From an uncultured bacterium (GTDB lineage Bacteria; Desulfobacterota_D; UBA1144), in assembly GCA_913050245.1 (NCBI GenBank), contig CAJWZJ010000004.1, positions 38,501-102,500 of the forward strand: DNA of 64,000 nt, read 5' to 3'. Below the pieces are notes generated by a model. It ran no database searches. It was not told the origin of the DNA and saw nothing but the letters and a program-made list of their open reading frames with translations. Of the stretch, positions 9,319 through 64,000 are shown one piece after another. The translations under genes and the position numbers were made by a program. Numbering within the stretch: the stretch's first letter is position 1; each line of letters starts with the position of its first letter.

Positions 9319-10851
9319 ATGAAAAAATTTCTTGGTGCAGAGCTTTTTTTTGAAAGTTTGTATAAACTTGGTATCAAAACAATCTTTGGACTCCCTGGGG
9401 GTTATGTTCTTAAAATATATGATGTGATGCCATCTTATGCAAAAAAAATTAAGCATATTCTGACAAGACATGAGCAAGCGGCTACACATATGGCTGATGG
9501 TTTTTCAAGAGCAAGTGGATTACCAGGAATCATCCTTTGTACTTCTGGCCCTGCTGCTACAAACACAATAACTGGAATTTCTACTGCATATATGGATTCC
9601 ATACCTGTTCTGGTCTTTACGGGCCAGGTGCCTACACCCTTTTTAGGTAGTGATGCTTTCCAGGAAGCTGATCACATTGGTATTACAAGGACATGTACAA
9701 AGCACAATACTTTAGTCAGAAAAACTATTGATCTTCCAAAGGCAATTGCAGAAGCTCTTTATATTTCTAATACTGGCAGGAAAGGGCCAGTCTTAGTTGA
9801 TATGCCAAAAGATGTTCTTATAGGTGAAAGTAGCTTTAAGATGCCAAAAAGTATTAAGATTAAAAGTTATGAAGATAGTGTGAACTTACAAAAAAAAGAA
9901 TATGATAATTTTTTAGCTGCCTTTAAAAAATCTAACAGACCACTTTTTATTTTTGGAAGAGGAGCATGTTCAGAAAAATCACAGAAGCAAATTACAAAAA
10001 TTTTGAATAAGTATAAAGTTCCAGGCCTCACTTCAATAATGGCTTTGGGGCTTCTTCATGATTCAAAATATAATTTTGGTTTAATTGATGAAAATTGTTC
10101 AAAAATATCCAAAGACATATTAAAAAAGTCTGATTTGGTTATTTCTGTAGGATGTGACTTGCCAAAAATTGTTAATTTGAAGAATAAGAAAATCATAAAT
10201 GTTAATATTGATAAAGTAGATCTTGATTCTACTAAAGAAGGAAATATTAATGTCCATACTGACTCTTGTGAATTTATTAACAAGTTAGATGATGAACAAA
10301 AATTAAGTTTTTTATGGAAAGAAGATGAATTTAAAAAATTTCATGATAATCATATAAGTGAATTAAATAAAGAGATAAAATTAAATATAAAAGCAAAAAT
10401 ATTCTCTGAAATCTCTAATTTATTTCCTAAAGATACTGTTTTCTGTTCAGATTTTAGTTATGAAGAGGTTAATCTGCAAAGATTTCTTAATATTTCTGAT
10501 TATAGAAATAACTTAATTTCTGGTGGTAATGGAACACCTGGATACGGTTTTCCTGCTGCTATAGGTGCTACCTTTTCCAGACCTAAGTCTAAAGTAGTTT
10601 CAATTTCATCGGGTAAAAATTTTCAATTTAACATGCAAGAAATGATTGTTGCTGTTGAGCAAAAAATTAATTTAACAATTATTGTTTTGAATGATTCTAT
10701 TAACAATAAATATCCTGGCCCAAACTATAAAACCCTAGCAGAATCCTTCAATGTAAGGTCTACAAGAGTAAAAGCTTCTGTATCAATGGGAAATACTATT
10801 AAAAAGTTTATGGGATACAAAGGAGTCACATTAATCGAAATTCTCATTTGA
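9319..10851 (+). CDS. Acetolactate synthase large-subunit-like ThDP-family protein with degenerate cofactor motifs
   Basis: N-terminal GGYVLKIYD, LTRHEQAATHMADGFSRASG, GQVPTPFLGSDAFQEAD match IlvB/IlvI; the C-terminal ThDP motif is SSGKNFQFN instead of GDG; followed by ilvH and ilvC. Confidence 0.8.
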   Translation: MKKFLGAELFFESLYKLGIKTIFGLPGGYVLKIYDVMPSYAKKIKHILTRHEQAATHMADGFSRASGLPGIILCTSGPAATNTITGISTAYMDSIPVLVFTGQVPTPFLGSDAFQEADHIGITRTCTKHNTLVRKTIDLPKAIAEALYISNTGRKGPVLVDMPKDVLIGESSFKMPKSIKIKSYEDSVNLQKKEYDNFLAAFKKSNRPLFIFGRGACSEKSQKQITKILNKYKVPGLTSIMALGLLHDSKYNFGLIDENCSKISKDILKKSDLVISVGCDLPKIVNLKNKKIINVNIDKVDLDSTKEGNINVHTDSCEFINKLDDEQKLSFLWKEDEFKKFHDNHISELNKEIKLNIKAKIFSEISNLFPKDTVFCSDFSYEEVNLQRFLNISDYRNNLISGGNGTPGYGFPAAIGATFSRPKSKVVSISSGKNFQFNMQEMIVAVEQKINLTIIVLNDSINNKYPGPNYKTLAESFNVRSTRVKASVSMGNTIKKFMGYKGVTLIEILI

Positions 10852-10901
10852 TTCATATATAATGATTGAATTAGATAAGTTTAAATACAGGGAGTTTAAT
10901 A

Positions 10902-11381
10902 GTGAGACATGTAATATCCATTCTTGTTGATAATGAACCAGGTGTTCTTGCAAGAATTGCAGGTTTATTTACAGCCAGAGGATTTAATATAGAAAGTCTA
11001 TGTGTAGCAGAGACTGAAAAGCAATCGTTATCAAGATTAACGTTGGTTACTTCAGGTGACGATTGGATAATAGAACAAATAATCAAAAGATTCGAAAACA
11101 TGATTAATGTTATTAAAGTGGATGATTTCAAAGAATCCCAAAGTTTACAACGTGAATTATTGATAGCACGAGTTAACCCTACTTCTAAAACAAGGTCAGA
11201 GGTATTAAGAGTTGCGGATATCTTTAGGGCTAACGTTGTTGACGTAGGTTCAAAATCATATGCTCTTGAAATAACTGGTAGCAAAGATAAGCTTGAAGCT
11301 TTTGTCGAAATACTCAGACCTTTAGGTTTGAAAGAAATTAATAGGACTGGACTTATATCTTTAAAAAGAGAGAAAAATTAA
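10902..11381 (+). CDS. ilvH: Acetolactate synthase small (regulatory) subunit
   Basis: ACT domain [32 protein letters not shown] start. Confidence 0.95.
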
Positions 11382-11397
11382 TATATGGAGTTATTTT

Positions 11398-12414
11398 ATG
11401 AAAGTATTTTATGAAAAAGATTGTGATATAGATTTAATAAAAAATCTTAATATTGGAATTATTGGTTTTGGTAGTCAGGGTCATGCCCATGCGCTAAATT
11501 TAAAAGATTCAGGCATGAACGTCTCGGTTGGGCTCAGAAAAGATGGTGAAAGTTGGAAAAAGGCCGAACTATCTGGATTAGAGGTATTAGAAGTTGCTGA
11601 TCTGGTTAAAAAATCTGATATTATAATGATCCTTGCTCCTGATACCAGTCAAAAAGAGATTTATGATAATCATATCAAGGACAATCTCACCACCGGAAAA
11701 TATCTAGCTTTTGGCCATGGTTTTAATATTCATTATGATCAAATTGTGCCAAATGATGATATAAATGTTTTTATGGTCGCTCCAAAAGCACCAGGACATA
11801 CTGTACGTGGAACATATGAAGAAGGAGCTGGGGTTCCTGGACTAATTGCGGTAAACCAAGATCCAACAGGAAATACTAAGGATATAGCCTTGGCTTATGC
11901 TGCTGGAATTGGCTCATCTAGAGTTGGAATTATTGAGACTACTTTTAAAGATGAAACAGAGACTGATCTCTTTGGTGAACAGTCAGTACTATGTGGTGGT
12001 TTGTCAAGCCTGATATTGGCGGGTTTCGAGACTCTAACAGAAGCTGGGTATCCACCTGAGATGGCCTACTTTGAGTGTTTACATGAAGTAAAATTAATTG
12101 TCGATTTAGTTTATCAAGGTGGCATTTCAAACATGAGATATTCCATCAGCGATACAGCTAAATATGGAGATATTACAAGAGGTCCTAGACTAATAGATGA
12201 GTCAGTAAAGAATAGGATGAAAGAAATTTTACAAGAAATACAGAGTGGTAAGTTTGCTAATGAATGGATTGAAGAAAATAAATCTGGTAGGAAAAACTAT
12301 ACAAAGCTGCTTAAAGATGGTGAAACGCACCCTATTGAAGATATAGGTGAAACATTAAGGTCAATGATGACTCCATTATTCAAAAAGAAGCTCGTAGATA
12401 AAGAAAAAAATTAA
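11398..12414 (+). CDS. ilvC: Ketol-acid reductoisomerase
   Basis: [58 protein letters not shown]. Confidence 0.98.
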
Positions 12415-39910: not shown

Positions 39911-40026
39911 CTAGGCAGCCATACTGGAGGGGGTACACCCGGATCCATTCCGAACCCGGCAGTTAAGCCCTCAGAGGCCGATGATACTTGTACCTATTGG
40001 TTCTGGGAAAGTAGGTAGCTGCCTAG
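39911..40026 (+). rRNA. rrf: 5S rRNA
   Basis: ctaggcagc/gctgcctag terminal helix with ggtacacccggatccattccgaacccggcagttaagccc core. Confidence 0.95.
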
Positions 40027-40037
40027 TTAAATTTCTT

Positions 40038-40643
40038 ATGTCGAATAAATTTAAAATCGCTATTTTTTCTTCTGGAAGTGGGTCAAACTTCGAAGCTATA
40101 GTTAAAGCTAAAATACCAAATGTTGAGGTTTGCTTCTTATTTTGTAATGTTGAAGATGCTTTTGTACTAGAGAGAGCAAAAAATTTAGGGATTCAAACTA
40201 TTATATTATCTCACAAAGGGTATAAACTTAGAAAAGAATATGAAGAAAAAATTATTTCATTAATTAACGAATACAATTTAGATCTTATTGTACTTGCAGG
40301 TTTTAAAAGAATTTTATCTCCTTTTTTTACTGGCAAATTTCAAAATAAAATTATTAATCTTCATCCTTCATTACTACCAGCATTTACCGGTCTTCATGCC
40401 CCTAGACAAGCCTTGGAATATGGAGCTAAATTCACAGGTTGTACAGTCCATTTTGTTGATGATGGAATAGACACTGGACCAATTATTATGCAAGGATTGG
40501 TAAGCATAGATCAAGAAGATGATGAGGATTCTTTAATATCAAAAATAAATTCAAAAGAACACGAAATTCTTCCTAAGTCAATTGAATTACTATCTTTAAA
40601 CAAATTTATAATTGAGGGAAGAAAAGTTTTCCTGAAAGACTAA
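40038..40643 (+). CDS. purN: Phosphoribosylglycinamide formyltransferase
   Basis: MSNKFKIAIFSSGSGSNFEAI, INLHPSLLPAFTGLHAPRQALEYG; track start at 39981 lies inside 5S rRNA so start moved to 40038. Confidence 0.93.
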   Translation: MSNKFKIAIFSSGSGSNFEAIVKAKIPNVEVCFLFCNVEDAFVLERAKNLGIQTIILSHKGYKLRKEYEEKIISLINEYNLDLIVLAGFKRILSPFFTGKFQNKIINLHPSLLPAFTGLHAPRQALEYGAKFTGCTVHFVDDGIDTGPIIMQGLVSIDQEDDEDSLISKINSKEHEILPKSIELLSLNKFIIEGRKVFLKD

Positions 40644-45918: not shown

Positions 45919-45991
45919 TCGGGGTGATTGGACTTGAACCAACGACCCCTGGTCCCCCAGACCAGTGCGCTACCAGCTGCGCCACACCCCG
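45919..45991 (-). tRNA. tRNA-Pro(GGG)
   Basis: Reverse strand cggggtg/caccccg acceptor, anticodon loop ctggggg, ggttcaagtcc T arm. Confidence 0.93.
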
Positions 45992-46361: not shown

Positions 46362-46988
46362 TTAACTGTCAATTAGCTTTATTTTAAAACTTTTTCTATG
46401 CATAAATGATTTTCCATATACTTTTATACCTTTAACATGCTCAGCTGTACCATAGCCAGCATTTTGAGATAATTTATAAAATGGAAAAATTCTATCATAT
46501 TTTTTAATTATAAAATCTCTGATAAATTTGGCCATAATCGATGCTGCACCTATAACTTTGCATTTATTATCACCAGATATAATAGATTCTTGATATATCT
46601 CAATTCCAGGTATCTTGCTTATTCCATCAACTAATGCGGCATCGATATTTTTATTTATATTTTGAATTGATTTTTTCATTGCTAATTCTGATGCATTTTT
46701 AATATTGATGTCATCAATCTCTTTGTTCTCCACAAAGCCAAGACCAAATGTACACTCCTTTTCAATCATTTGATTAACTAAATAATTTCTCTTTTTCTCT
46801 GATAATTTTTTTGAATCTTTTATTTTTTCTAGCTCAATTGATAAAAACTTTTCATCTAGTAATACAGAGCAGGCTACAACTGGTCCAAATATCGATCCCC
46901 TACCAACTTCATCAATACCAACTATATTTTTATATTTATTAAGTAGTTTGTTTTCTTCAACTGATAATAAATTATTTAAATTTTTAAT
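46362..46988 (-). CDS. rnhB: Ribonuclease HII, apparent ATT start
   Basis: The track ORF (46362..46769) is N-truncated; in-frame extension gives KNLNNLLSVEENKLLNKYKNIVGIDEVGRGSIFGPVVACSVLL..DSKKLSEKKR..ALVDG..GAASIMAKFIRD with no in-frame stop. Confidence 0.85.
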   Translation of the reverse strand: MKNLNNLLSVEENKLLNKYKNIVGIDEVGRGSIFGPVVACSVLLDEKFLSIELEKIKDSKKLSEKKRNYLVNQMIEKECTFGLGFVENKEIDDINIKNASELAMKKSIQNINKNIDAALVDGISKIPGIEIYQESIISGDNKCKVIGAASIMAKFIRDFIIKKYDRIFPFYKLSQNAGYGTAEHVKGIKVYGKSFMHRKSFKIKLIDS

Positions 46989-47872
46989 TTTAAAATTTCC
47001 TTAATTAGAGCTGATGTTAGGTTTTTGTCCAAGGTTGTTAATGGCAGCCTGATCACATTTTCACATAGCTTAAGATAGCTCATTGCAAATTTAATAGGAA
47101 TAGGATTTGTTTGAATGAAGAGCAACTTATTGATTTTGCTTAATTTTTTATTTAATTCGGAACAATGTTTTAATTTACCCAAGACAAACGAATCATACAT
47201 ATTAGAGCAGCTCTTTGGGTCAAGATTAGATGTTACAGATATGTAACCTCTTCCACCATTCTTTAATATTGGAAGATTTAAACTATCCTCACCAGATAAA
47301 ACAATAAACTTTTTGGAACAATCAGATATTATCTCCTTTACTTTTTTAATTGAACCAGATGCCTCTTTAATGCCAATTATATTTTTATTTCTTTTTTCCA
47401 GCCTTACTATTGTTTCTGTTTCAAGATTTACAACTGATCTTCCAGGAATATTATAAAGAATTATAGGTAGCTTAGTTCTTGATGCAATCTCATTGAAATG
47501 TTTGAATAAGCCTATTTGATTTGGTTTATTATAGTATGGAACAACCTGTAAGCTTGCATCTGCACCAGCTTTTTCAGCAGCTTTTGTGAGTCTTATTGCT
47601 TCTAATGTAGAGTTAGATCCGGTACCTGCAATTACGGGAACTCTCCTTTTAGCTTCTTTTACTGTTATTTCTATAACTTTGTCATGCTCATCATGGCTAA
47701 GAGTAGGCGATTCCCCAGTAGTTCCACAAGGAACAAGTCCATGAACTCCATTTTCAATTTGACGTTTAATCAATTTTTTGAGGCTAATTTGATCCAACTT
47801 CCCTTTTTTGCTGAAGGGAGTAATTAAGGCGGTTATGCAACCATAAATTCTAGTCATAGATTTATAATACAA
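46976..47872 (-). CDS. dapA: 4-hydroxy-tetrahydrodipicolinate synthase
   Basis: GCITALITPFSKKGKLD, PCGTTGESPTLSHDEH, YNIPGRSVVN; true start probably MTRIYG, 5 codons in. Confidence 0.95.
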   Translation of the reverse strand: MYYKSMTRIYGCITALITPFSKKGKLDQISLKKLIKRQIENGVHGLVPCGTTGESPTLSHDEHDKVIEITVKEAKRRVPVIAGTGSNSTLEAIRLTKAAEKAGADASLQVVPYYNKPNQIGLFKHFNEIASRTKLPIILYNIPGRSVVNLETETIVRLEKRNKNIIGIKEASGSIKKVKEIISDCSKKFIVLSGEDSLNLPILKNGGRGYISVTSNLDPKSCSNMYDSFVLGKLKHCSELNKKLSKINKLLFIQTNPIPIKFAMSYLKLCENVIRLPLTTLDKNLTSALIKEILKLKI

Positions 47873-63603: not shown

Positions 63604-64000
63604 TATATGAAGAGTTTGATCCTGGCTCAGAGTGAACGTTGGCGGCACGCCTAACACATGCAAGTCGAGCGAAGTAGCTTGCTACTTAGCGGCGAACGGG
63701 TGAGTAATGCTTGGATAATCTGCCTTTAGGTCTGGGACAACCACAGGAAACTGTGGCTAATACCGGATATGACCACATTTACCAAGGTTTATGTGGTAAA
63801 AGATTTATCGCCTTTAGATGAGTCCAAGTCGCATCAGGTTGTTGGTAGGGTAATGGCCTACCAAGCCTATGACGCGTAGCAGGTCTTAGCGGATGATCTG
63901 CCACATGGGGACTGAGATACGGCCCTGACTCCTACGGGAGGCAGCAGTGAGGAATATTGGGCAATGGACGCAAGTCTGACCCAGCGATGCCGCGTGAAGG
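63604..64000 (+). rRNA. rrs: 16S rRNA, 5' portion (runs off window)
   Basis: agagtttgatcctggctcag (27F site), ctcctacgggaggcagcagt (338 region). Confidence 0.98.

Follow-up and report, generated by a model that had tools for sequence, protein, structure and literature searches.

The gene for RNase HII (rnhB) in the 64,000-nucleotide window analysed here is proposed to start at an AUU codon nested within the 3' end of dapA, a reading to which we assign a probability of roughly 0.75. The proposal covers a clade of seven genomes, comprising the window genome (G000), four others of the same genus (g1, G001–G004) and two of genus g4 (G007 and G010), which group together with a support of 98. The features on which the argument turns are as follows.

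46362–46988, minus strand: rnhB, RNase HII of 208 aa with the proposed AUU start, recognised by Pfam and NCBIfam matches, catalytic motifs and pN/pS
46767–46769, minus strand: ATG, first canonical in-frame start of rnhB, 3' of the first catalytic motif
46976–47857, minus strand: dapA, NCBIfam TIGR00674 at 359.7 bits, above cut-off, with the Shine-Dalgarno (SD) element inside it
46986–46988, minus strand: ATT, proposed rnhB start codon, invariant in all seven clade genomes and always followed by AAA
46998–47003, minus strand: TAAGGA, SD element with a 6-nt anti-SD match, whose TAA is the in-frame stop bounding the rnhB frame

RNase HII is a DNA-repair enzyme, and rnhB is an intact gene for it. 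Its minus-strand frame is open from the codon after the TAA at 47003–47001 to the TAA at 46364–46362, and, in agreement with the preliminary description of this DNA, contains no ATG, GTG or TTG between the upstream stop and the catalytic GIDEVGRG motif. The product matches RNase HII across its full length, scoring above cut-off with both Pfam RNase_HII PF01351 (E 1.6e-37, 129.8 bits against a cut-off of 25.8, profile positions 1–197 of 199) and NCBIfam NF000595 (194.4 against a cut-off of 167), and the motifs GIDEVGRG, LVDG and AKFIRD are all present and align with the solved RNase HII 3o3g. These matches make the 208-aa reading a complete RNase HII, in line with the earlier claim that its length is normal for the enzyme. 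Translation from the ATG at 46769 would yield the 135-aa ORF that had been described as missing the first catalytic motif, and GIDEVGRG indeed lies 5' of this codon; the full set of catalytic acidic residues (DE, D, D) requires translation to start 5' of the DE motif. Among 60 window ORFs rnhB is an outlier in this respect, its first canonical codon being codon 77 vs codon 22 or earlier in the others. A pN/pS of 0.39 across the rnhB body, computed with seven relatives, indicates purifying selection on the gene.

The comparison drew on stretches of ten family genomes, the window genome itself being a 798-kb draft that is 80% complete; a scan of genome contigs returned a single locus, on the same contig as G001. 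In all six closest relatives (G001–G004, G007, G010) the gene after dapA is rnhB, again in the −1 frame, and in five of these, spanning two genera, as in the window genome, no canonical rnhB start lies ahead of the DE motif. The exception is G002, which has an ATG exactly at the dapA TGA stop (ATGA), four codons 3' of the ATT. In other genera of the family rnhB has an ATG that lies at the dapA stop or immediately 3' of it.

An ATT at 46988–46986 preceded by AAGGA about 9 nt upstream, inside the dapA tail, was the start put forward in the preliminary description, and the coordinates agree, the gap in the window being 9 nt. Conservation of this arrangement in relatives had been suggested as a check, and the presence of ATG, GTG or TTG at the same position as evidence to the contrary. 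The element [A/G]AGGA-N9-ATT-AAA is kept inside the dapA tail in 7/7 clade genomes and both genera, and a search of close relatives for a canonical codon at the ATT position found none. The SD–ATT gap is constant at 9 nt, whereas ATT precedes the dapA stop by 10, 13 or 22 nt, depending on the genome. TAAGGA matches over 6 nt the anti-SD of the 16S 3' end, GGATCACCTCCTTA, taken from relatives as the window genome is without a full 16S; a 16S rRNA gene start is found at window positions 63604–64000, where it is cut by the contig end. In aligned spacing the rnhB ATT lies 7 nt from its SD, and clade ATG genes with an SD peak at 4–7. Comparison thus supports the assignment of the start to ATT well: the codon is conserved with the same SD spacing in two genera, other candidates are not conserved, and purifying selection acts on the gene. 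The G002 ATG four codons further on weighs against it.

The last 13 nt of dapA, which ends with the TAA at 46978–46976, overlap rnhB. Since the SD–ATT element is embedded in a conserved protein tail (K-E-x-x-[KR]-L-K), part of its conservation comes from DapA, and much of it could; synonymous choices were therefore examined. The lysine codon that forms the SD is written AAG in 6/6 clade genomes having lysine there, although AAG accounts for only about 9–18% of lysine codons before GAA in the sampled stretches; the seventh genome, G004, has glutamate, written GAG, and hence a weaker SD match (GAGGA). Synonymous shuffling that left the DapA protein unchanged and followed the codon usage of each genome gave the arrangement a probability of 0.08–0.12 per genome. 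G000 and G001 differ by about 0.58 at synonymous sites, so that G000, G001–G003, G004 and the g4 pair count as almost independent, and the seven genomes amount to only about four near-independent lineages at such sites. The product of the per-genome values places the joint chance of the arrangement, by estimate, in the order of 1e-4. Against this must be set the outgroup G008, whose dapA also reads AAG GAA with no SD role.

Substitution patterns place the beginning of translation at or before the dapA stop, since codons just 3' of it show purifying selection in G001–G003 (pS 0.23–0.61 vs pN 0.06–0.14). Between G000 and G001, however, the N-terminal rnhB segment shows lower conservation than the remainder of the gene (pN 0.41 vs pS 0.57), which counts against the AUU reading. 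It can also be read from the sequence that a change of ATT to ATG would make a dapA TTA codon (Leu) a TGA stop. The persistence of the codon is thus explicable without a regulatory role, and regulation should not be assumed from it.

The main rival to the AUU start, which we consider unlikely, holds that ribosomes terminating on dapA start again at the codon that overlaps its stop, the upstream ATT being incidental.

46977–46979, minus strand: TTA over the dapA stop, rival start position, ATA in G001, G003, G004, G007 and G010 and ATG in G002

Sister genera illustrate such a configuration at the same place, with TAATG in G006 and an ATGA overlap in G008, and G002 keeps its ATGA and could use that ATG. 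In infC and hflX this lineage evidently starts translation at AUA, and most family genes are devoid of a clear SD. Yet the window has TTA here, a codon not known as a start; ATA results trivially whenever a dapA codon with A in third position precedes TAA or TAG; and the SD lies at a variable 18–27 nt from this position, as opposed to a constant 9 nt from ATT throughout the seven genomes. A start at another codon of the 30-codon interval, such as the ATA just before GIDEVGRG, appears improbable. Some RNase HII proteins do begin a few residues before the motif (in 1io2 and 2dfe the match begins at residue 3), but this ATA is not conserved, ATT is the one in-frame NTN codon of the interval that the seven clade genomes share together with an SD at working spacing, and the upstream codons are under purifying selection in G001–G003.

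A −1 frameshift near the dapA end, producing a DapA–RNase HII fusion for which rnhB needs no start of its own, is very improbable. The −1 frame of rnhB relative to dapA and the heptamers near the dapA end (TTTAAAA in the window, AAAAAAA in G001, G007 and G010) would suit such an event, but the heptamers differ in place among genomes, G002, G003 and G004 have no slippery heptamer, sister genera have a separate, ATG-started rnhB, and RNA structure in the region stays at chance level. The fusion was rejected because no slippery heptamer before the dapA stop is conserved. Sequencing or assembly error, or decay of the gene, is scarcely credible despite the draft state of the genomes and the many N in G003: the same state recurs in relatives of two genera whose genomes were assembled separately, AG-470-J09 among them, which refutes error as a general explanation for an arrangement found in seven related species, and the frame is open, with catalytic residues present and purifying selection evident.

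In the AUU model, AAGGA, which lies in the coding part of dapA, would pair with the 3' end of the 16S rRNA and so place the ribosome at AUU 46988–46986; initiator tRNA would then read this codon, presumably less efficiently than usual. The dapA overlap would help hold the codon non-canonical. Judging from the sister genera, the SD–ATT element probably took the place of an ATG that once stood at the dapA stop. The intact gene, the lack of canonical starts and the clade-wide conservation of SD, spacing and ATT are shown, whereas actual AUU use, low rnhB expression and IF3 control are inferred. Coupling of rnhB to dapA translation is plausible, as is sensitivity of the rnhB start to IF3, considering that infC is found in 13/14 family genomes and itself begins with AUA. 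RNA structure predicted around the rnhB start did not rise above shuffled controls, and scans for promoters and terminators stayed at chance level.

Comparison with established systems makes rnhB a putative member of the genes with non-canonical starts, two of whose marks it combines, namely no canonical codon before an essential region and a conserved AUU with its SD; as a further mark, initiation at this codon would be weaker than at AUG and rise when IF3 is impaired. The classic AUU starts are those of E. coli pcnB and infC, the latter serving IF3 in the autoregulation of its own synthesis. rnhB resembles infC in having a conserved start of the AUU/AUA type, a rare class against which IF3 discriminates, and an SD at working distance, but it does not encode a translation factor and hence has no self-loop, its start is nested in an upstream gene and confined to one clade, and its use is inferred here. 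E. coli pcnB likewise combines an AUU start with a nucleic-acid enzyme gene, and this start is reported, as cited in PMC13009471, to limit expression (Binns and Masters 2002); gene and organism differ, and the pcnB start is experimental whereas that of rnhB is deduced. In S. aureus, infC and ccpN (AUA) and cvfC1 (AUU) have non-canonical starts with extended SDs, and reporters of cvfC1, ccpN and citZ give about 10–30% of AUG expression (PMC13009471). As in cvfC1 and ccpN, start and SD are both conserved in rnhB, but the S. aureus starts were mapped by ribosome profiling and reporters while the rnhB start comes from sequence, and its SD is shorter (5–6 nt). Short same-strand overlaps coupled by termination–re-initiation are also known (PMC10666635, PMC2268962). 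At 13 nt the dapA/rnhB overlap is of this short same-strand kind, and sister genera have its ATG version; unlike in coupled overlaps, the conserved rnhB start precedes the dapA stop, has an SD to itself and is not AUG.

An SD match of at least 5 nt at working spacing occurs in 15% of 602 family ATG genes (internal control 2.8%), and is commoner at the non-canonical starts of rnhB (6/7), infC (11/13) and hflX (8/12). The high rnhB figure speaks for the AUU reading, as does the use of AUA, mostly with an SD, in infC and hflX. When 932 ORFs from ten family genomes, all with inter-genus homologues, were scanned and the results sorted by eye, only rnhB, hflX and prfB were flagged as without a canonical start, beside ordinary late ATGs and rRNA-overlapping frames. 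The prfB flag reflects the known RF2 programmed frameshift; locus L123 (17570–18625) is the second part of prfB without its own start, as expected for that frameshift. infC fell below the threshold of the scan and was found by separate search: in 13/13 family genomes holding it (L031–L043) the start is AUA after a purine-rich, mostly GGAGG, site. These data come from relatives, as the 80% complete G000 holds no infC match. Several other genomes of the class have ATAGCYAGA near the same place in infC.

The ribosome-splitting GTPase HflX provides what appears to be a stronger case than rnhB, and one apparently unreported, no mention of an AUA start in hflX having been found in the literature searched.

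Near 10362–11405 of G000:C8 (locus L079), minus strand, and L074–L117 across the class: hflX, invariant ATA at the apparent start

The codon five before the N-terminal motif is ATA in 40/40 class loci with a recognisable motif, whereas the codon three positions after it, mostly isoleucine, varies (ATC 15, ATA 12, ATT 5, CTC 4, others). A canonical in-frame codon before or just after the motif is absent from 31/40 loci and present in 9/40. In other phyla, hflX genes with no canonical N-terminal start have ATA (L171, L178), ATC (L241) or CTA (L217) nearby.

These starts may, tentatively, delineate a small IF3-gated gene set, with infC and hflX (AUA) class-wide and rnhB (AUU) recruited in one clade, in which initiation stringency would jointly set the levels of IF3, HflX and RNase HII; this remains a doubtful proposition. 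The invariant hflX AUA allows a direct test of a link between the levels of IF3 and HflX. To our knowledge few conserved natural AUU or AUA starts exist outside infC, and rnhB would add an AUU case nested in another gene, whose overlapping frame blocks mutation to AUG. Gene callers limited to ATG, GTG and TTG would here cut RNase HII short, leaving a product that lacks the catalytic site, and would commit the same error in hflX and infC.

Some minor observations concern other window features. The 5S rRNA gene at 39911–40027 overlaps the open frame that precedes a purN-like gene, which is why the frame ahead of the purN-like ATG looks conserved; the late-canonical-start ORF at 39915–40640, overlapping this 5S gene, is accordingly ordinary. 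The surE frames of relatives were likewise set aside as ordinary, the open frame merely running upstream of their own ATG. In the window a tRNA-Pro (GGG) at 45919–45991 lies between a MerR-like gene and surE.
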